A stretch of DNA of 49,236 nt, from the NCBI GenBank assembly GCA_035303785.1, contig DATGRI010000050.1, positions 1 to 49,236 of the forward strand. Reading direction: 5' to 3'. Under the pieces are notes generated by a model, which did not search any database, was not told the DNA's origin, and saw only the letters and a list, made by a program, of their open reading frames with translations. Shown in pieces: positions 20,068 through 32,023 of the stretch (its first letter is position 1; each line of letters opens with the position of its first letter). The translations under genes and the position numbers were made by a program. Origin of the DNA: Sphingobacteriaceae bacterium. Its GTDB lineage: Bacteria; Bacillota; Sulfobacillia; Thermaerobacterales; RSA17.

Positions 20068-20916
20068 ATGGACCAGGAAGGCGCCTATATCCACGTCAAC
20101 GGTCTGCGCCTCCACTATGTGGAACAAGGCAGGGGGCCGGCGATTTTGCTCCTCCATGGCTTCACCGGGAGCACCGCCAGCTGGTCGCGGATCCTGCCCG
20201 CCCTGGCCGGCGGCTGCCGCGCCGTTGCCGTGGACCTCATCGGCCACGGCCGTTCCGAGGCGCCCCGGCAGTGGGAGCGCTACACAATCGCCCACTGCGT
20301 GACGGATCTGCAGGCCCTCCTGGATCGGCTGGAAATCCAGCAGGCGGTGGTGCTGGGCTATTCCATGGGCGGCCGGGTCGCTCTCAGCCTGGCCGCCGCC
20401 GCGCCCCACCGGATCACAGCCCTCATCTTGGAAAGCACTTCGCCCGGCCTGGCCACCGATGAAGAGCGGGCCCAGCGCCGCCGGGCCGACGGCGATCTGG
20501 CCGGCATGATCGAAGATCAGGGCATCGAGACCTTCGTGGATCATTGGGAGAAGCTGCCCCTCTTTGCCAGCCAGCAGGATCTGCCCTCGGCGGTCCGGGC
20601 CGGCCAGCGGGCCCAGCGTCTGGCCAACCGGCCCTGGGGTCTGGCCAACAGCCTGCGGGGCATGGGCACCGGGAGCATGGCACCCCTCCATCACCAACTC
20701 CCCGCCCTGACCATGCCCGCCTTGGTCATCGCCGGCGGGCTGGACGCCAAGTACTCGTCTACCGCCCAAGACATGGCCGCCGCCATGCCCCGGGCGGAGC
20801 TGGTCATCGTGCCGGGGGCGGGCCACAATGTACACTTGGAGCAGCCTGACCTTTTCCGCTGCCTGGTGTTAAGCTTCTTGCAGAGCCTGAGGGACAAAAA
20901 ACTGACCCATTCATGA
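20068..20916 (+). CDS. menH: MenH-type alpha/beta hydrolase (SHCHC synthase)
   Basis: 282 residues. The alpha/beta hydrolase pattern is clear: oxyanion region LLLHGFTGSTASW near 30, nucleophile elbow GYSMGGRVAL near 96, acid in AGGLDAKYS near 225 and histidine in GAGHNVHLEQP near 255. SHCHC synthases share this arrangement. In the second-last ring-forming step it eliminates pyruvate from SEPHCHC, the MenD product. The start ATG 20068 has GAGGAG 9 nt upstream. The gene directly precedes menB (12 bp gap), which supports the assignment over a generic hydrolase. Confidence 0.88.
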   Translation: MDQEGAYIHVNGLRLHYVEQGRGPAILLLHGFTGSTASWSRILPALAGGCRAVAVDLIGHGRSEAPRQWERYTIAHCVTDLQALLDRLEIQQAVVLGYSMGGRVALSLAAAAPHRITALILESTSPGLATDEERAQRRRADGDLAGMIEDQGIETFVDHWEKLPLFASQQDLPSAVRAGQRAQRLANRPWGLANSLRGMGTGSMAPLHHQLPALTMPALVIAGGLDAKYSSTAQDMAAAMPRAELVIVPGAGHNVHLEQPDLFRCLVLSFLQSLRDKKLTHS

Positions 20917-20928
20917 GAGGTGGTTGGG

Positions 20929-21747
20929 ATGGCCATCCCGTGGCAAAAAGCGGGCGACTACCAGGACATCATCTATGAAACCTACGAAGGCATCGCCAAG
21001 ATCACCATCAACCGGCCCGAGGTGCGCAACGCCTTCCGGCCCCAGACGGTCATTGAGTTGATGGATGCCTTCAACCGGGTCCGGGAAGACCCGGCCATCG
21101 GCGTCGCCATCTTGACCGGCGCGGGCACCAAGGCCTTCTGCTCCGGCGGCGACCAGAAGGTGCGGGGCGACGGTGGCTACGTGGGCGACGACGGGGTGCC
21201 CCGGCTCAACGTGCTGGACCTGCAGAAGCAGATCCGCTACCTGCCCAAGCCGGTCATCGCCATGGTGGCGGGCTACGCCATCGGCGGCGGCCACGTGCTG
21301 CACCTGGTGTGCGATTTGACCATTGCCGCCGACAACGCCGTCTTCGGCCAGACGGGGCCGCGGGTGGGCAGCTTCGACGCCGGCTACGGGGCCACCCTTC
21401 TGGCCCGGATCGTGGGCCACAAGAAGGCCCGGGAAATCTGGTACCTGTGCCGCCAGTACTCGGCCCAGGAAGCCCTGGAGATGGGCCTGGTCAACACCGT
21501 GGTGCCCCTGGAGCGGCTGGAAGAGGAAACGGTCCAGTGGGCCAAGGAGATCCTGCAGCACAGCCCCCTGGCCCTGCGGTTCCTGAAGGCGGCCTTCAAC
21601 GCCGACACCGACGGCCTGGCCGGCCTGCAGCAGCTGGCGGGGGACGCCACCCTGCTGTATTACCTGACCGACGAGGCCAAGGAAGGCCGCGACGCCTTCG
21701 TGGAAAAGCGGAAGCCCGATTTCTCCAAGTTTCCCCGCTTCCCCTGA
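20929..21747 (+). CDS. menB: 1,4-dihydroxy-2-naphthoyl-CoA synthase MenB
   Basis: 272 residues of the crotonase fold. It closes the second ring of the naphthoquinone from o-succinylbenzoyl-CoA. Visible motifs include [28 protein letters not shown] (MenB-specific flexible loop), [19 protein letters not shown] (oxyanion hole) and [13 protein letters not shown]. The C-terminal ending [14 protein letters not shown] is characteristic of MenB. ATG 20929 was chosen over GTG 20920 because GAGAGGTGG is correctly spaced. It lies between menH and menE in one operon. Confidence 0.97.
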
Positions 21748-21772
21748 TGGTGCCGGGTGAGGGAGCCGGGCT

Positions 21773-23413
21773 ATGACTATCGAACCGGGGTTTACGGCCG
21801 ACCGCTTCATGCCCGACTGGCTCCGGCGCCGGGCGGGAGGCTTGCCGGAGCAAATGGCCTTGATGGCTCCCCAAGGGCGCTGGACCTTTGCCCAACTGGA
21901 CCGGCAGGTGGATCTCGCTGCCCGCCGGCTCCAAGCCTTGGGGGTGGAACCCGGCCAGCGGGTGGCCTTCCTGCTGCGGAACGGGGCTCCTTTCGTCATT
22001 TTGCTCCACGCCGTGGGCCGGGTGGGGGCCGTGGTGGTGCCCCTCAACACCCGGCTCACTCCCGCGGAACTGGCCTGGCAGTTGGGCGATGGGGCGGTCC
22101 ATTTTCTCATCACCGACGAGGAATTCCACGGCACGGCCGTTGAGGCGGCCCGCCAGACGGCGGCAGCCCGCCAGGCGGCGGCACGACAGGCGGCGGCACG
22201 CCAGACGGTGGCAGCCCGCCCTTCCTTGACTCTGTTGACAGTGGATGACGAGGGGCTGCCGGTCACGCCCGCCGGGGCTGACACCGGCACCCCCGAAGAA
22301 GCGGCCCCCTCGACCGCTCCCCTGCGGGAACGCATCGACCTGGCCGCCGTGCACTCCATCCTTTACACCTCGGGCACCACCGGCCGCCCCAAAGGAGCCC
22401 AGTTGACCTACGGCAACCACTGGTGGAGCGCCGTGGCCTCCGCCTTGAACCTGGGCCTCCGCCACGATGACCGCTGGCTGGCCTGCCTGCCCTTGTTTCA
22501 CGTGGCCGGCCTGTCCATCTTGCTGCGGAGCGTCATCTACGGCATCCCGGCGGTGGTGCATCCCCGGTTCGACCCGGCGGCGGTGAACCAGGCCATCGAG
22601 CGGGACGGCGTGACCATGGTCTCGGTGGTGGCCGCCATGCTCCAGGCCATGCTGGAGGAGCAGGGCGACAGGCCGTACCCCGACCACTTGCGCTGCATTT
22701 TGGTGGGCGGCGGCCCCGTGCCCCGGCCCCTGCTGGAAGAATGCGCCCGCCGTGGCCTGCCGGTGGTTCAAACCTACGGCCTCACCGAGACGGCCTCCCA
22801 GGTGGCCACCTTGTCGCCGGCTCACGCTCTGGACAAGCTGGGCTCCGCCGGCCGGCCCCTCCTCCCCAACGAAATCATCATCGCCGGGGATGAAGCGGCT
22901 CCTGCTCCTGAAATGCCGAGCCTCCCACCTTACCAGGTGGGTGAGATCTGGGTGCGGGGCCCCACGGTGACGCCGGGCTATTTCCGGCGCCCCCAGGACA
23001 CGGCCAGGGCCATCCAGAGCGGCTGGCTCCGCACCGGTGACTTGGGCTACTTTGACGAAGACGGCTTCCTATACGTGGTGGATCGCCGGGACGACCTCAT
23101 CATCTCCGGCGGCGAGAACGTCTACCCGGCCGAAGTGGAGGCGGTCCTCGCCGCCCATCCCGCCGTTGCCCAGGCCGGGGTGGCGGGGATTCCCCACCCG
23201 CGCTGGGGGCAGGTGCCTGCCGCCGCCGTCGTCCTGCGCCCCGGCACCCAGGCCGCCGCCGGCGAGCTAAAGGACTTTTGCGCCCAGCGCCTGGCCCGCT
23301 ACAAAATCCCGGCCCATATCATCTTTGTGGATGAACTGCCCCGAAACGCCGCCGGCAAACTGGTCCGGCACCAGCTGGCCCGGCTCTTGTCCCAAGGGCA
23401 GCCCGGCGCCTGA
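21773..23413 (+). CDS. menE: o-Succinylbenzoate-CoA ligase MenE
   Basis: 546 residues, an ANL-family adenylating enzyme making the MenB substrate. The P-loop-like A3 motif is YTSGTTGRPKGAQLTY near 200. QTYGLTETASQ near 330, WLRTGDLGYFDEDGFLYVVDRRDDLI near 420 and a C-terminal PRNAAGKLVRH lysine complete the set. An insertion near residues 124-145, reading like QAAARQAAARQ, comes from 15-bp repeats at about 22143-22220 and probably forms a surface helix. The length is somewhat above usual for that reason. It ends the menH-menB-menE group. A repeat-rich intergenic region follows. Confidence 0.94.
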   Translation: MTIEPGFTADRFMPDWLRRRAGGLPEQMALMAPQGRWTFAQLDRQVDLAARRLQALGVEPGQRVAFLLRNGAPFVILLHAVGRVGAVVVPLNTRLTPAELAWQLGDGAVHFLITDEEFHGTAVEAARQTAAARQAAARQAAARQTVAARPSLTLLTVDDEGLPVTPAGADTGTPEEAAPSTAPLRERIDLAAVHSILYTSGTTGRPKGAQLTYGNHWWSAVASALNLGLRHDDRWLACLPLFHVAGLSILLRSVIYGIPAVVHPRFDPAAVNQAIERDGVTMVSVVAAMLQAMLEEQGDRPYPDHLRCILVGGGPVPRPLLEECARRGLPVVQTYGLTETASQVATLSPAHALDKLGSAGRPLLPNEIIIAGDEAAPAPEMPSLPPYQVGEIWVRGPTVTPGYFRRPQDTARAIQSGWLRTGDLGYFDEDGFLYVVDRRDDLIISGGENVYPAEVEAVLAAHPAVAQAGVAGIPHPRWGQVPAAAVVLRPGTQAAAGELKDFCAQRLARYKIPAHIIFVDELPRNAAGKLVRHQLARLLSQGQPGA

Positions 23414-23956: not shown

Positions 23957-24535
23957 TCACAATTTGAGGAAAATTCCCACCGCCGCCGCCGCGGCCAGGA
24001 TGAAGACTGGGTGGGCTTTACGGCGCAGATACACAAACAGAGCCGCCAGAAAGAGGACGGCTCCCGGCAGGTTGATGGCTTCCCAGAAGGGTGCGCCGGC
24101 TTCTAGGGGCGGGGTACCGGCCCGGTTCCCGTTGATCAGGTCGTAGCGCCCCAGCTCCAAGGCCACGGCGCCGATGAGCCCCGCCACCGCGGGCCGGATG
24201 CCGTAAAAGGCCCCTTGGGCGATGGGATGCTCCTTGACTTTCTTCAGGCTGTTGGCCACCAGCAGGATGATGATGACCGAAGGCGCTGCCGTCGCCAGGG
24301 TGGCTATGATGCCGCCGAAAACCCCGGCGGTGCGGAAGCCCACGAAGGTGGCCACATTGACGCCGATGGGCCCCGGGGTGGCTTCGGAAATGGCGATCAT
24401 GTCCAGCAGTTGGTCGGCGGTGATCCAGCCGTATTTGGGAATCAAGGCCTGCAGGAAGGGCAGGGCCGCCAACCCGCCGCCGATGGTGAACAGGCCGATT
24501 TTGAAAAACTCGTAAACCAGCAGGAGGTAGATCAT
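23957..24535 (-). CDS. chrA: Chromate transporter (CHR family), second half-size subunit
   Basis: 192 residues, a half-length CHR-family membrane protein. The conserved N-terminal motif of the family is visible: FFKIGLFTIGGGLAALPFLQ, then LDMIAISEATPGPIGVNVATFVGFR. Four or five further hydrophobic helices follow. Full-length ChrA proteins are two fused copies of this unit, while Bacillota often have two half-size genes that work together, as seen here. ATG 24535 overlaps the upstream subunit stop by 4 bp. The transported substrate is chromate or another oxyanion. Chromate export is inferred from the family only. Confidence 0.92.
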   Translation of the reverse strand: MIYLLLVYEFFKIGLFTIGGGLAALPFLQALIPKYGWITADQLLDMIAISEATPGPIGVNVATFVGFRTAGVFGGIIATLATAAPSVIIILLVANSLKKVKEHPIAQGAFYGIRPAVAGLIGAVALELGRYDLINGNRAGTPPLEAGAPFWEAINLPGAVLFLAALFVYLRRKAHPVFILAAAAAVGIFLKL

Positions 24536-25173
24536 GCCTTATCCACCCGGGAACCCTCTGCCTCCGGCACTTCGTCGCGGGACTCATCCGGCTTGGCCGC
24601 CTTGACCTTCAACCACTGCCCGTGCCCGATGCCGATTAGGGCCGCCGCGGCGATCACCAAGATAGGGGAAATTTCCATGAAAAAAATCGCCGCCAGGGCT
24701 GCGGCGAACAGGACAACGCCCAGCCAGTCGTTGACGGCTGTGCGCCACATGTTGACCACAGCCCCGATGATGAGGGCGGTAACGGCGATGCGGACACCGG
24801 CAAAGGCGTGCTGCATGACGGCAAGCTGCTCGAAATGGTGAACAAAGGTGGCGATGAGGGTGATGACGATGATGGACGGGGTGACCATGCCGAATGTAGC
24901 AGCGATGGCTCCTGGTGCGCCCCGCCGGTCGTACCCCAAAAATGTCGCCGTATTGATGGCGATGATGCCGGGCATGGACTGGGCGACGGCATAATAATCT
25001 ATCATTTCTTCATCGGTGGCCCAGCCGTGCTTCTCTACGATTTCCTTCTGCATCATCGGCAAAATGGCGTAGCCGCCGCCGAAGGTAAGGCCACCGATGC
25101 GGAAAAAGGTCCAAAACAACTGCCAGAGTTCCGCCAGGCCGTCCAGCCTCCCCGTGATTGGCTCAATTGACAC
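24532..25173 (-). CDS. chrA: Chromate transporter (CHR family), first half-size subunit
   Basis: 213 residues, the partner of the overlapping downstream gene. The motif FFRIGGLTFGGGYAILPMMQKEI is followed by DYYAVAQSMPGIIAINTATFLGY and several hydrophobic helices. A charged C-terminal tail (AAKPDESRDEVPEAEG) is absent from the partner. The two halves differ clearly in sequence, as expected for heterodimeric CHR pairs with opposite membrane orientation. It is the first gene of the two-gene operon. It diverges from the ytxH-like gene, with only 66 bp between starts. Confidence 0.92.
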   Translation of the reverse strand: MSIEPITGRLDGLAELWQLFWTFFRIGGLTFGGGYAILPMMQKEIVEKHGWATDEEMIDYYAVAQSMPGIIAINTATFLGYDRRGAPGAIAATFGMVTPSIIVITLIATFVHHFEQLAVMQHAFAGVRIAVTALIIGAVVNMWRTAVNDWLGVVLFAAALAAIFFMEISPILVIAAAALIGIGHGQWLKVKAAKPDESRDEVPEAEGSRVDKA

Positions 25174-26039: not shown

Positions 26040-27461
26040 ATGCCCGTAGCCAGTCTCGGTCGCCGCCGGGCGATCCTGTTCCTGCTGTGCCTGGCGCAAC
26101 TGATGTGCATTCTGGACATCTCCATCGTCAACATCGCCATCCCGTCCATCCAGAAGGAACTGGGCCTGGCCCCCACCGCCCTCCAATGGGTGATGACGGC
26201 CTACGTCCTTACCTACGGCGGCTTCCTGCTGGTGGGCGGCCGGCTGGGCGACCTGTACGGGCGGCGCCGCATCCTTTATCTCGGTCTGGCGGGCTTCACC
26301 ATCGCCTCGGCCGTAGGCGGCGTGTCCACGGGCGCCGTCAGCCTGTGGGCGGCCCGGGCGGGGCAGGGCCTGGGGGCCGCCGTCATCAGCCCCACGGTGC
26401 TGTCCTTCATCACCAGCCTCTTCCCCGAAGGCCGGGAACGAAACCATGCCGTGAGCACCCTGGCGGCCGTCACGGGGCTGGGCTTCGCCCTGGGCCTGGT
26501 GCTGGGCGGCATTCTCACCACTGCCGTCGGCTGGCGCTGGGTGTTCTTCATCAACGTGCCCATCGGCGTGGCGGTCATCGCCGCCGCCATGATCATGCTG
26601 CCGGAAACGGAGCGGGTGCGGCAGCCCGTGGACATTCCCGGCGCCGTGCTGGCCACGGCGGGCCTGACGGTGACGGCCTACACCTTGTCCTCCCTGGAAG
26701 CGGGAAGCATTTTCTCCCTGAGGACCGCTATTCTGGCGGCCCTGGCGATCATGCTATTCGTCGTACTGGTCCTGGTGGAAAGGAACTCGCCCCATCCCCT
26801 GGTGCCGCCGGGCCTCCTGCGGCACCGGTCCCTGCTCCATGCCGTCATCGGCGCCGGCGTCTTCGGCTCCGTCATCGGACCCACCGGGTTCATGCTCACC
26901 ATCTACCTGCAGGACGTAAGCCGCTTCAGCCCCCTGACCACCGGCCTGTCCTACCTGCCCCAGGAGGCAGCGGTCCTGGCCGCCTCCTACCTGGCCGGGC
27001 GGTGGGTGGGCCGCCGGCTCACCAGCCGGGCCGTCATCGCCCTGGGGGTCGTCGCCTTCGGCAGCGGCGCCTGGTGGCTGGCCCAGCGCCTTCCCGCCGG
27101 CGGCTACTGGGAGACAGTCCTGCCGGGGCTGCTCCTCATGGGCGCGGCCATCGGCCTGGTGGTGGTGGGCGGCTCCATCGCGGCCACCCAAGGCCTCCCC
27201 AACCTCCAGCACGGGGCAGCCGCCGGCATTTTCAACACGTCCCAGCAGATCGGCACTGCCTTCGGCCTGGCCCTGCTGACGGCCATCGCCACCAACGAGA
27301 CATCCCGGCTGCTGGGCGCCGTACCCGGCCTGGCGCCCGACGCCGCCATGGTGGGCGGCTTCAGCACTGCCTTCGCCGCCGCCGTGATCATCGCCCTGGC
27401 GGGCCTGGCGGGCTTGTTCTCGGTGGGCAGGCAGGCCTCCGATCCCCGTACCGAACCCTGA
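26040..27461 (+). CDS. MFS drug exporter, DHA2 (14-helix) type
   Basis: 473 residues with about 14 hydrophobic helices. The first helix has CILDISIVNIAIPSIQKELGL, which is motif D1 of the DHA2/EmrB-QacA family. Motif A reads GGRLGDLYGRRRIL, and motif C-like glycine-rich sequence is GLGFALGLVLGGIL, followed by WRWVFFINVPIG. Members export drugs or other hydrophobic compounds using the proton gradient. The actual substrate is unknown. ATG 26040 has GGAGGAAG upstream. A 204-bp AT-rich stretch separates it from the U32 genes, so co-transcription is not certain. Confidence 0.92.
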   Translation: MPVASLGRRRAILFLLCLAQLMCILDISIVNIAIPSIQKELGLAPTALQWVMTAYVLTYGGFLLVGGRLGDLYGRRRILYLGLAGFTIASAVGGVSTGAVSLWAARAGQGLGAAVISPTVLSFITSLFPEGRERNHAVSTLAAVTGLGFALGLVLGGILTTAVGWRWVFFINVPIGVAVIAAAMIMLPETERVRQPVDIPGAVLATAGLTVTAYTLSSLEAGSIFSLRTAILAALAIMLFVVLVLVERNSPHPLVPPGLLRHRSLLHAVIGAGVFGSVIGPTGFMLTIYLQDVSRFSPLTTGLSYLPQEAAVLAASYLAGRWVGRRLTSRAVIALGVVAFGSGAWWLAQRLPAGGYWETVLPGLLLMGAAIGLVVVGGSIAATQGLPNLQHGAAAGIFNTSQQIGTAFGLALLTAIATNETSRLLGAVPGLAPDAAMVGGFSTAFAAAVIIALAGLAGLFSVGRQASDPRTEP

Positions 27462-27665: not shown

Positions 27666-28604
27666 ATGGCGGCATTTGAGTTGACGGCAGAAATACCGAC
27701 CCTGGACCAACTAAAGGCGACAGATCTCACCCCCTTCGACGGCGTCTACCTGGGCCAGCCTTACTGCCGGCTCTATCGGGACAATCCCATCGCCAACTTC
27801 GACCAGTTGAAGGCCGCCGTCGCCTACCTGAAGGAGAAGGGCAAGAAGGCCTACGTCAGCACCGACGCCGGCCCCCGCAGCGAGACCCTGCCCCAGGTGC
27901 AGGCCATGCTGGAAATATGCGCCGAACTGGAAGTCGACGGCATAGATGTGCAAAGCCTGGGCGTGCTGCGCCTGGCCCACCGGGACTTTCCCCAGCTGCC
28001 CCTCATCGCCGGCGGCTTCATCAACCTGTACACCTTGGAAGGGGCCCGCACTTTGGCCCAGTACGGGGTCAGGGTCCTGCGCCCGTCCTACGAGCTGAAC
28101 CTGGACGAAATCAACCTGATCCGGGATGAGACGGGGCTGGAAGTTGAACTCCTGGTCCACGGCAAGTTCCCCCTGGGCATCACCGACCGGTGCTTCCTCC
28201 TGGACTACCAGGAGCAAACCGGCCTGTCGTGCCCCGACATCTGCCTGGAGGAGTTCTGGATGACCCGGGGATCCTGGACCTTGCGCCACATCGGCACGGC
28301 CCTGCTCAGCGGCAAGCAGATGTGCATGCTGGAGCACCTGCCCCACCTGGTGGGCCTGGGCTACCGGCGCTTCCGCATCGGCACCCTGACCACCCCCGCC
28401 CCCCACCGGGGCGAGATGGGCCGCATCTACCGGGAAGCCCTGGCCCAGGCGGCCGATGCCCAGCACTATCCCCGGGAAACCCTGATGAAGGAATTGGAAA
28501 AATACAGCCGGCACGGTTTTTGCAACGGCTATTACTTCGGCCAATCGGGCCACCTGTACATCAGTCACGCTGAGAAGGCGGCCCAGTCGGCCACGACAAT
28601 TTGA
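27666..28604 (+). CDS. U32-family protein, UbiV-like, with four-cysteine Fe-S set
   Basis: 312 residues. Three U32-family features stand out. The TIM-barrel-like start is FDGVYLGQPYCRL. The centre has GIDVQSLGVLRLAHRDFPQLP, and the signature region is VELLVHGKFPLGITDRCFLL...SCPDICLEEF. Cysteines fall at 34, 176, 189 and 193, the same order and nearly the same spacing as the [4Fe-4S] ligands of E. coli UbiV (39, 176, 193, 197). The length also fits UbiV, without the extra C-terminal domain of U32 proteases. UbiV with UbiU carries out oxygen-independent hydroxylation of ubiquinone precursors. The substrate here is unknown. GGAGG lies 6 nt before the ATG. It leads a three-gene U32 operon. Confidence 0.85.
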   Translation: MAAFELTAEIPTLDQLKATDLTPFDGVYLGQPYCRLYRDNPIANFDQLKAAVAYLKEKGKKAYVSTDAGPRSETLPQVQAMLEICAELEVDGIDVQSLGVLRLAHRDFPQLPLIAGGFINLYTLEGARTLAQYGVRVLRPSYELNLDEINLIRDETGLEVELLVHGKFPLGITDRCFLLDYQEQTGLSCPDICLEEFWMTRGSWTLRHIGTALLSGKQMCMLEHLPHLVGLGYRRFRIGTLTTPAPHRGEMGRIYREALAQAADAQHYPRETLMKELEKYSRHGFCNGYYFGQSGHLYISHAEKAAQSATTI

Positions 28605-28622
28605 GCGGGGAGGCTTGAGAAC

Positions 28623-29576
28623 ATGACGACGGTATTGATGGCGCCCGGCGGCAGCATCGACATGGTGCGCTGCTGTTTCGAGGCCGGCGCCGAGTTCGTT
28701 TATATCGGCCCCCGGGGCTGGAGCCGGCGGCGCTCCGAATACGAGATGGGTGACGACGAAATAAAGGAATGCGCCGAAATCGCCCGGCAGCTGGGCGGCC
28801 AGATCCGGCTGGTGTTCAACTCCAACCCCGAGGCGGGCCATTCCGACGCCATTTTGCGCAAGGTGGGCACCTACATGAACTGGGGCATCAACCAGTTCAC
28901 CGTCAACGACTTCGGGTATATGCGGCAAATCAAGGAGGCATTCCCCGAGGCCTTCCTGTGCGCCAGCGTGGGCGCCCACATCATCAACGCCGAAGACGCC
29001 CGCTTCCTCCAGGACATCGGCGTGGAGCAGGTGGTTTCCGACTGCAAGTGGGACTGGGATGAACTGCAGGCCCTCAAGGACACGGGGATCAGCATGGAAG
29101 TGCTCATCCACGCCAGCACCTGCTACACCTTCATCGGCTCCTGCTGGTGGAGTAGCTACATGGAAATGGACAAGACCTTCGACATCGAGAACAATGTGAA
29201 GTTCCTGGGCAGTCCCAATCGGGGCGGCCTGTGCTGGCGGCCCTGCCTGGAGCCGTGGAACTTTGATCTGGGCGGCCGCCCCATCGCCCGTACCCGCATG
29301 GACAACAAGGCCTTCTTCTTCATCGAGGAGATTCCCCGGCTGGTGGACATGGGCATCGACATGCTGAAAATCCAGGGCCGGGAGTACTCCCTGGATTTGA
29401 TGGGCGAGATCGTGTCCTTTTACCGGGACCTGCTGGACGCCTGCCTCAACAAGGAGGAAATCGACTTTGCCTGGTGGCGGGAGCGGCTGGCCGACATCGA
29501 ACGCCGCCGGGATCTGCAGCGGGCCCGGGCTACCGCCAAGCTGTACTTGGAAAGCGGCCTCCACGCCACCGTCTGA
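28623..29576 (+). CDS. U32-family protein, UbiU-like (first of two paralogues)
   Basis: 317 residues. The start MAPGGSIDMVRCCFEAGAEFVYIG is the U32/UbiU opening. SVGAHIINAEDARFLQDIGVEQVV and IDMLKIQGREYSLDLMGEIV follow. The central signature gives C167, C174, C204 and C208. The C-x6-C pair matches UbiU (169 and 176). The other two cysteines are C-x3-C rather than the widely spaced 193/232. It is therefore expected to hold an Fe-S cluster, but this is inference. It follows the UbiV-like gene after 18 bp and precedes a paralogue after 51 bp. It has no separate protease-type catalytic signature. Confidence 0.85.
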   Translation: MTTVLMAPGGSIDMVRCCFEAGAEFVYIGPRGWSRRRSEYEMGDDEIKECAEIARQLGGQIRLVFNSNPEAGHSDAILRKVGTYMNWGINQFTVNDFGYMRQIKEAFPEAFLCASVGAHIINAEDARFLQDIGVEQVVSDCKWDWDELQALKDTGISMEVLIHASTCYTFIGSCWWSSYMEMDKTFDIENNVKFLGSPNRGGLCWRPCLEPWNFDLGGRPIARTRMDNKAFFFIEEIPRLVDMGIDMLKIQGREYSLDLMGEIVSFYRDLLDACLNKEEIDFAWWRERLADIERRRDLQRARATAKLYLESGLHATV

Positions 29577-29627
29577 TCCGGCCGGGGCGGCCGGCAGGCC
29601 GCCGCGGCACCCTGGGGAGGTGGGACC

Positions 29628-30563
29628 ATGGCCTTGGTCTTAGCCCCCGTGGGCTCCAAGGAAGCACTGCTAACGGCCCTCAGCAGCGGCGCCGACGGCT
29701 TCTACATGGGTGGCCGGGGCTGGAGCCGCTGGGGCCGCACCTCCGAGGTGTCCGAGGAGGAAATGGCCCAGTGCATCCGACTGGGCCTGAGCCGGGGCTG
29801 CCAGATCCAGATCGTCTTCAACCGCATTCCCACCCATGGGGAGGAGGCCCGGTTCCTGGCGGCGGTGGAGGCCAGCATCCGGCAGGGCGCCCACGAGGTC
29901 ATTCTGAACGACCTGGGGGCTATCTCCCTGGTCAGGCAGCACCTGCCGGAAGTCAACGTGGGCGTCAGCATCGGCTGCTCCATCCGCAACCTGGAGGACG
30001 CCCGGTTCTACGCCGACCTGGGCGTGTCCACCCTGGTGCTGCCGTGGACCATGTCCGCCGAAGATGTCTACCGGTTGAAGGAAGAGTACCCCCACCTGCG
30101 GCTGGAGATCTTCCTGTACGTGGAAGCCCATCCCTACGTGCTGGGCCTGTGCACCTTCGGCAGCTACACCCATATGAAGCAGGTGGAGACGGAACCCGGT
30201 GTCGTCCGCTATCTGGGCAGCGCCAAGCGGTGCGGCAACTGCAGCCGGCCCTGCACCCGCCCATGGGAGACCCAGGTGTTGGGCCGGACCATCCACGAGG
30301 GCCCCATGCCCCGGCGCCACATCGTGGTGCTGGATACCCTGGCGGAAATGATCGTCGCCGGGGTGGACCTGCTCAAGGTGCAGGGGCGCAACATACCCCC
30401 CGAGAAGGTGGGCGGGCTCATCGGTGCCCTCAAGACCTTCGTCGTCCAGGCCAAGGAGACAGTCGAAGGCCGGCCGGAACTCCCCGGCGACCTGCTGCTG
30501 GACTGGGATGCCGGCCAGATGGAGGTGCTGACGGAACTGCTGCCCCAGGCGGAATTCATCTAG
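29628..30563 (+). CDS. U32-family protein, UbiU-like (second paralogue)
   Basis: 311 residues, clearly related to the preceding gene: LAPVGSKEALLTALSSGADGFYMGGRGW parallels its start, and VDLLKVQGRNIPPEKVG parallels its end. The Fe-S region differs. The first cysteine is replaced by His168, C175 remains, and C205 and C209 match the C-x3-C pair. An extra C202 could supply a fourth ligand. This suggests a different cluster environment or a specialised partner role. ATG 29628 is preceded by GGGGAGGTGG. It ends the three-gene run. A GC hairpin (30581-30610) lies shortly after the stop. Confidence 0.85.
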   Translation: MALVLAPVGSKEALLTALSSGADGFYMGGRGWSRWGRTSEVSEEEMAQCIRLGLSRGCQIQIVFNRIPTHGEEARFLAAVEASIRQGAHEVILNDLGAISLVRQHLPEVNVGVSIGCSIRNLEDARFYADLGVSTLVLPWTMSAEDVYRLKEEYPHLRLEIFLYVEAHPYVLGLCTFGSYTHMKQVETEPGVVRYLGSAKRCGNCSRPCTRPWETQVLGRTIHEGPMPRRHIVVLDTLAEMIVAGVDLLKVQGRNIPPEKVGGLIGALKTFVVQAKETVEGRPELPGDLLLDWDAGQMEVLTELLPQAEFI

Positions 30564-30967: not shown

Positions 30968-32023
30968 CTACTCCCCTTGCCCGTCCTTCTGCCCCCGCAT
31001 CTTGGCCACTTCCCGGCGCACCACCGGGGCCACCTGGGTGCCGAACAGCTCGATGCAGCGCAGCACCTTGTCATGGGGCAGGCTGCCCACGGTGAACTGG
31101 AGCAAGAACCGCTCGTGGCCAAAAATCTCGTACTGGAACAGGATCTTCTCGATGATCTCCTGGGGGCTGCCCACAAAGTTGGCACCCCGCAGGGTGCAGG
31201 AGGCGTCGAACTGCTCTCGGGTCATGGGAGGCCAGCCCCGCTCCTGGCCCAGCTTGTTCATGGTGTGGACGAAGGCGGGAAAGGCGATGTCCCGGGCCTC
31301 CTGGGAGGTCTCGGCGATGAAGCCGTGGGAGTTGATGCTGATGGCGGGCGGTTCGTGGCCCGCCTGCAGCGCCGCGTTGCGGTGAATTTCTCCCAGGATG
31401 GAGAATCGCTCGGGCAGTCCGCCGATGATGGCGATGGCCATGGGCAAACCCAGTCGACCGGCCCGCATGGCCGATTGCATGGTGCCGCCCACCGCAATCC
31501 ACACCGGCAGGGGGTTCTGGATGGGCCGGGGATACACGCCCAGATTATCCAGGGCCGGCCGGTGCAGCCCCGACCAGGTGACCTTCTCCTGCTCCCGGAT
31601 CTTCAGCAGCAGGTCCAGTTTCTCGGCGAACAGTTCGTCGTAGTCGCTCAAGTCGTAGCCGAACAAGGGAAAGGATTCGATGAAGGAGCCGCGGCCCGCC
31701 ATGATTTCGGCCCGGCCGCCCGACAGCAGGTCCAAGGTGGCAAAGGACTGGAACACCCGGACAGGATCGTCGGAACTGAGCACCGTCACGGCGCTGGTGA
31801 GGCGAAGCCGCTTGGTGCGGGCGGCGGCGGCGGCCAGGATGACCGCCGGGGCCGAAGACACGTACTCGGGCCGGTGATGCTCACCGATGCCGAAGACGTC
31901 CAGGCCCACCTGGTCCGCCAGTTCGATTTCTTCCATCAGGTTTTGCATGCGTTGAGCAGGCGACAGGACCCGCCCCTCCGGGTCCGGCGTGTTCTCCACA
32001 AAAGTGTAAATGCCCAGTTCCAC
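30968..32023 (-). CDS. LLM-class flavin-dependent oxidoreductase
   Basis: 351 residues, a bacterial-luciferase-like TIM barrel. Typical motifs are [15 protein letters not shown] near 40, [34 protein letters not shown] near 75-108, GRGSF, and [11 protein letters not shown] near 170. The class uses reduced FMN or F420. The F420 or FMN choice cannot be settled here, and the substrate is unknown. GTG 32023 has AGGTG about 11 nt upstream. It is convergent with the U32 operon and downstream of the copper-protein gene on the same strand, separated by a strong hairpin. Confidence 0.9.

Follow-up and report, generated by a model that had tools for sequence, protein, structure and literature searches.

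A trio of U32 proteins related to UbiU and UbiV in genomes without a detected ubiquinone pathway

What do three adjoining U32 genes do in a genome where no pathway for ubiquinone is detected? To our knowledge, the established targets of U32 hydroxylases are ubiquinone precursors and two RNA positions only, and a trio found outside these settings raises the question of which enzyme it encodes and on what that enzyme acts. We examined a window of 49,236 nucleotides (contig DATGRI010000050.1 of assembly GCA_035303785.1) from a genome of 1.64 Mb that is 97.9% complete, together with its relatives and with other genomes that carry similar genes. An earlier note on this DNA had read the locus as an operon of three UbiV/UbiU-like Fe-S proteins beside a menaquinone pathway, an interpretation that our analysis partly supports.

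The three U32 reading frames described in the earlier note are present, on one strand (Table 1), and all match Pfam Peptidase_U32 (PF01136, gathering score 22.4), with scores of 114.5, 109.6 and 79.8 bits and E-values of 6e-33, 2e-31 and 2e-22 for V, U and W, respectively. U and W are 28% identical. The gaps between the genes are tight (V-U 18 bp, U-W 51 bp) and each ATG is preceded by a purine-rich Shine-Dalgarno-like sequence; thus V, U and W likely form one operon. No further U32 genes were found in the source genome. The MFS gene upstream is not conserved next to other trio loci. The luciferase-like gene that adjoins the trio recalls yhbW, a luciferase-like gene that we take to adjoin ubiV in E. 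coli, but this is perhaps a coincidence because such a gene is absent beside the other trio loci. Neither the MFS gene nor the luciferase-like gene was therefore kept as a functional partner of the trio.

Table 1. Trio genes and neighbouring features in the window
Feature	Position	Strand	Remarks
V (proposed subunit), U32 protein, 312 aa	27666..28604	+	Sister clade of UbiV (strong support); putative [4Fe-4S] ligands C34, C176, C189, C193
U (proposed subunit), U32 protein, 317 aa	28623..29576	+	In clade sister to UbiU (strong support); E159 at the position of the Glu that TrhP requires
W (proposed subunit), U paralogue, 311 aa	29628..30563	+	C175, C205, C209 kept; position 168 non-Cys
DHA2-type MFS efflux transporter	26040..27461	+	204 bp upstream of V; putative operon member only
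menH, menB, menE	20068..23413	+	Menaquinone genes near the trio
MenE	21773-23413	+	Low-complexity Ala-Arg-repeat-rich insert (ARQTAAARQAAARQAAARQTVAARP), unusual for the family
Two adjoining chromate-transporter-like genes	23957-25173	-	Separate the men genes from the trio; named by eye from sequence
Luciferase-like monooxygenase gene	30968-32023	-	Adjoins the trio

The relationships of the trio were examined in a tree of 94 U32 domains and in a more careful one of 64, whose references were E. coli UbiU, UbiV, TrhP and RlhA and plasmid-borne UbiUV. V grouped with UbiV at a support of 99/99 (UbiV by itself 100/100), and U, W and X, the last being extra UbiU-like paralogues of some NC10 genomes, grouped with UbiU at 99/95. 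These groupings were retained when eight Cys-rich columns were removed (99/98 and 99/97, respectively). The UbiV branch is long (2.7), and the arrangement of cysteines independently agrees with the tree. V did not fall inside the UbiV clade, being its sister, and none of V, U or W fell inside the TrhP or RlhA clades in any tree. Each of the three is monophyletic and their clades have similar membership, as expected if all three evolve together. Against the NCBIfam models, V scored 82.5 for UbiV (NF047965, equivalog cut-off 275), while U and W scored 79.3 and 80.3 for UbiU (NF047963, equivalog cut-off 440). Scores so far under these cut-offs, taken with the trees, indicate that the trio proteins are sisters of UbiUV and not members: the placement of V as sister of UbiV, and of U and W within the sister clade of UbiU, has strong support in these sequence comparisons. 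The trees thus show the combination that the earlier note had found unfamiliar, one UbiV-like protein together with two UbiU-like paralogues. They also place the trio outside the characterized U32 subfamilies, while UbiG was over cut-off in none of the 16 trio genomes and SCP2, the UbiT domain, was not found in the window genome; membership of such a subfamily or a ubiquinone pathway in the same genome were the findings that the note had named as fatal to the proposed novelty.

Predicted models of U and V have a beta-alpha barrel order, and the best fold match for both is the U32 structure 5D88, although the Cys (cluster) region is modelled with low confidence. This match came from a fold search; a sequence search of the PDB returned no significant U32 match.

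The ligands of the Fe-S clusters in E. coli are C39, C180, C193 and C197 for UbiV and C169, C176, C193 and C232 for UbiU (PMC6747719); the earlier note had misplaced the second UbiV ligand at 176 in giving the set as 39, 176, 193 and 197. It had correctly read C34, C176, C189 and C193 of V as following the UbiV order. These four cysteines are present in 25 of 25 homologues with the UbiV spacing C-x12-C-x3-C, so that V carries the UbiV-type pattern CxnCx12Cx3C; C220 is also kept in 25/25 and C286 in 24/25. The pattern of UbiU ligands, CX6CX16CX38C, was not found in U or W. U has CX6CX29CX3C, formed by the C167-x6-C174 and C204-x3-C208 pairs already described in the note, and C167, C174 and C208 are present in all 23 homologues, with position 204 being Asp in 19 and Cys in four, the window protein among them. 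W lacks the first Cys and has H168, C175, C205 and C209 in the window protein, the three cysteines being present in 24/24 homologues. The His reported at position 168 is there, but is confined to the window protein, the family norm being Glu (22/24, with Gln in one). Similarly, the extra C202 exists but is found in the window protein only (1/15), and its candidacy as a substitute ligand was dropped for lack of conservation. The Glu equivalent to E162 of TrhP, which is essential for that enzyme (PMC6599085), is present in 25/25 V, 23/23 U and 24/24 W proteins. Conservation of the trio cysteines is beyond chance and spans several phyla. Judged from these alignments, W, and U in most lineages, appear to offer three Cys plus a carboxylate or His. 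In other enzymes, site-differentiated Fe-S clusters of this kind frequently take part in catalysis, and they may do so here. Alternatively, the three-Cys sites might mean that a cluster has been lost.

The trio has a patchy distribution, which suggests horizontal transfer. Among 60 relatives, a similar trio occurs only in G040 (Bacillota bacterium DBS2-4.bin160), where the order is W-V-U. V is present in two of the 154 genomes of the class and missing from 152, and most class members are without any U32 gene. Ordinary U32 genes are common in a phylum sample of 399 genomes, and a V-like score was obtained for the window genome only (620 bits, next best 140). A scan of named contigs turned up trios in Methylomirabilota (NC10) and Rokubacteria, and also in one Acidobacteriota, in one Thermoplasmata MAG and in G040. 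For 11 of 14 named-contig genomes the number of U32 genes is exactly three, the trio being the entire complement. Trio-type V was found in 21 of 95 NC10/Rokubacteria genomes, with six more having only a sister type, V2. In the archaeal Thermoplasmata MAG (loci L059 and L076), the closest partner of V in the tree is an NC10 protein, and this trio could be the result of transfer or of misbinning. None was found in the viral sequences scanned, and plasmids yielded only distant U32 relatives, with at most about 26% identity among the full-length matches listed.

Gene neighbourhoods in NC10 provide suggestive hints at the substrate, the NC10 genomes being mutually related. An AMP-forming acyl/aryl-CoA ligase lies upstream on the same strand in 12 NC10 loci, at distances of 123 bp to 8.1 kb, often in clusters with class III CoA-transferases, IclR regulators and two small proteins. 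Two of the small neighbour proteins had no Pfam match and so gave no functional clue. A PrmA-like methyltransferase is encoded 5' of W in three NC10 loci. In nine (L071, L072, L073, L074, L047, L082, L153, L155 and L160), U is directly followed, within 116 bp, by the gene for a conserved protein of ~81-118 aa with two CxxC motifs; this is weakly similar to the rubredoxin-like domain of rubrerythrin, and might carry electrons to or from the U32 complex. The two Bacillota trio loci have no neighbours in common with NC10 or with each other. A sister operon of one V2 and three X U32 genes was observed in L147, L148, L149, L157, L159 and L162 (e.g. L147:3295-12882), and one V2/X cluster lies in a 2,752,854-bp single-contig NC10 genome. 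X has Gly at the first Cys position in 23/23 and V2 has lost the conserved Glu. Besides the U32 proteins, the V2/X clusters encode a HisC-type transaminase and an SsuA-like protein of solute-binding type, joined in several cases by a PEP-synthase/RPH/PigC-like enzyme; this gene content again points to small-molecule metabolism.

We propose that V, U and W may assemble into a single heteromeric U32 enzyme, a relative of UbiU-UbiV, in which every subunit is TIM-barrel-like with its Cys set near the barrel end. V would hold an ordinary four-Cys [4Fe-4S] cluster, whereas W and, in the majority of lineages, U would bind a cluster through three Cys with Glu, Asp or His as the fourth ligand, making the three-Cys cluster a candidate for the catalytic iron or for the site that receives the substrate. 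If it works like UbiUV, TrhP and RlhA, the complex would carry out an O2-independent hydroxylation with prephenate as the oxygen donor. Prephenate dehydratase is encoded in 15 of the 16 trio genomes, that of the window included, and hence nearly all of them should have a supply of prephenate. The substrate would most likely be small and probably aromatic, and would be neither ubiquinone nor linked to the Men pathway. We consider the chances about even that the trio is an Fe-S hydroxylase of three subunits that acts on a small molecule, needs no O2 and probably depends on prephenate. A more specific reading, which we offer tentatively as a possibility, is that it represents a third type of U32 hydroxylase, with three subunits and site-differentiated Fe-S clusters, for the O2-free hydroxylation of an aromatic or CoA-linked metabolite.

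The substrate could instead be menaquinone, demethylmenaquinone or another quinone. UbiU and UbiV, the nearest relatives of known function, act on quinone precursors; the Men pathway is present in the window genome, and the Bacillota relative encodes an MqnP-like prenyltransferase. The PrmA-like methyltransferase of the three NC10 loci would also be in keeping with a quinone. We nevertheless regard this as rather unlikely. MenB is over cut-off in only two of the 16 trio genomes (the window genome and one other) and under it in 14, and therefore the Men genes of the window are a poor clue to the substrate; conversely, V is missing from nearly all genomes of the class, and the window genome yielded no SCP2/UbiT-like protein. 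Its strong UbiA-family match is heme O synthase. The men genes lie outside the trio operon, cut off from it by the two opposite-strand chromate-transporter-like genes and the MFS gene, and no men genes adjoin any other trio locus read. Gene order and MenB distribution thus rule out a menaquinone operon, and the menaquinone link drawn in the earlier note is not supported; we judge this neighbourhood of the trio to be incidental.

Another chemistry altogether, such as a dehydration or reductive step in acyl-CoA/aryl-CoA catabolism, seems to us unlikely. Hydro-lyases typically have three-Cys sites with an open iron, and a set of three Cys with Glu/His in W, or with Asp in most U, would suit such an Fe-S complex, as would the genes for a CoA ligase and CoA-transferases near the NC10 trios. 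However, two TrhP Cys columns are retained in the trio, as is the Glu that TrhP cannot do without, and all characterized U32 enzymes of this type that we know of are linked to hydroxylation.

Hydroxylation of RNA, at tRNA U34 or in 23S rRNA, is quite improbable, although the earlier suggestion of an RNA target is kept as a reading. The trio would then stand in for a missing TrhP or RlhA, since most trio genomes are without any other U32 protein, and a paralogous U32 pair, TrhP1/TrhP2 of Bacillus subtilis, modifies tRNA (PMC6599085). Yet V, U and W group with the quinone-acting UbiU/UbiV and with neither TrhP nor RlhA, the function is dispensable in that most class members lack a U32 gene, and the NC10 neighbours hint at small molecules. 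The methyltransferase family that includes TrmR gave a weak match in the window genome (69 residues, 23.6 bits) and none in G040.

To read the trio as a genuine UbiU-UbiV system that serves ubiquinone synthesis is scarcely tenable: the top NCBIfam match is indeed UbiV for V and UbiU for W, but such a UbiUVT identity is ruled out by scores of 82 against 275 and ~80 against 440, the sister position in the tree, UbiG under cut-off in 16/16 genomes and the SCP2 search of the window genome.

Returning to the preferred reading of a small-molecule hydroxylase, the presence of the trio in organisms without a detected coenzyme Q pathway means that the enzyme family probably has a new target, and a self-contained trio in this setting offers a new substrate to find. 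If a third type of U32 hydroxylase does exist, hydroxylation with an organic donor reaches beyond ubiquinone and RNA. The division of ligands, with four Cys in V and, in W and U, three Cys joined by Glu, Asp or His, also predicts which subunit would hold the catalytic iron.

In comparison with known systems, the trio appears from its sequences to be a distinct relative of UbiUV that is neither UbiU/UbiV, TrhP nor RlhA. PepU32#6 of Kimura et al., for which we know of no assigned function, has a reference (D5MIQ1) that we take to be from Methylomirabilis; it possibly belongs to the same wider group as the NC10 V2/X cluster. RlhA, which hydroxylates C2501 of 23S rRNA, shares the U32 domain, the Glu and a Cx6C motif, but is long (650-850 aa) and forms a separate clade. 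TrhP (YegQ) and TrhP1/TrhP2, which hydroxylate tRNA U34, share the U32 barrel and Cx6C and Cx3C pairs resembling those of U, and the TrhP paralogues are encoded together in Bacillus; they differ in their separate clades, in a C-terminal extension that the trio lacks, and in a spacer of ~15 residues where C174-C204 of U has ~29. UbiU-UbiV, which with UbiT performs O2-independent ubiquinone hydroxylation in Pseudomonadota, has two subunits as against three and occurs in other phyla than the trio, whose genomes are without UbiG over cut-off or, in that of the window, a detected UbiT; the CX3C of U replaces C232 of UbiU, U mostly lacks the third Cys and W lacks the first. This system is also the closest likeness in the trees, where V, with its CxnCx12Cx3C, groups with UbiV and U and W with UbiU, the genes in both systems being adjacent and the catalytic-type Glu retained.
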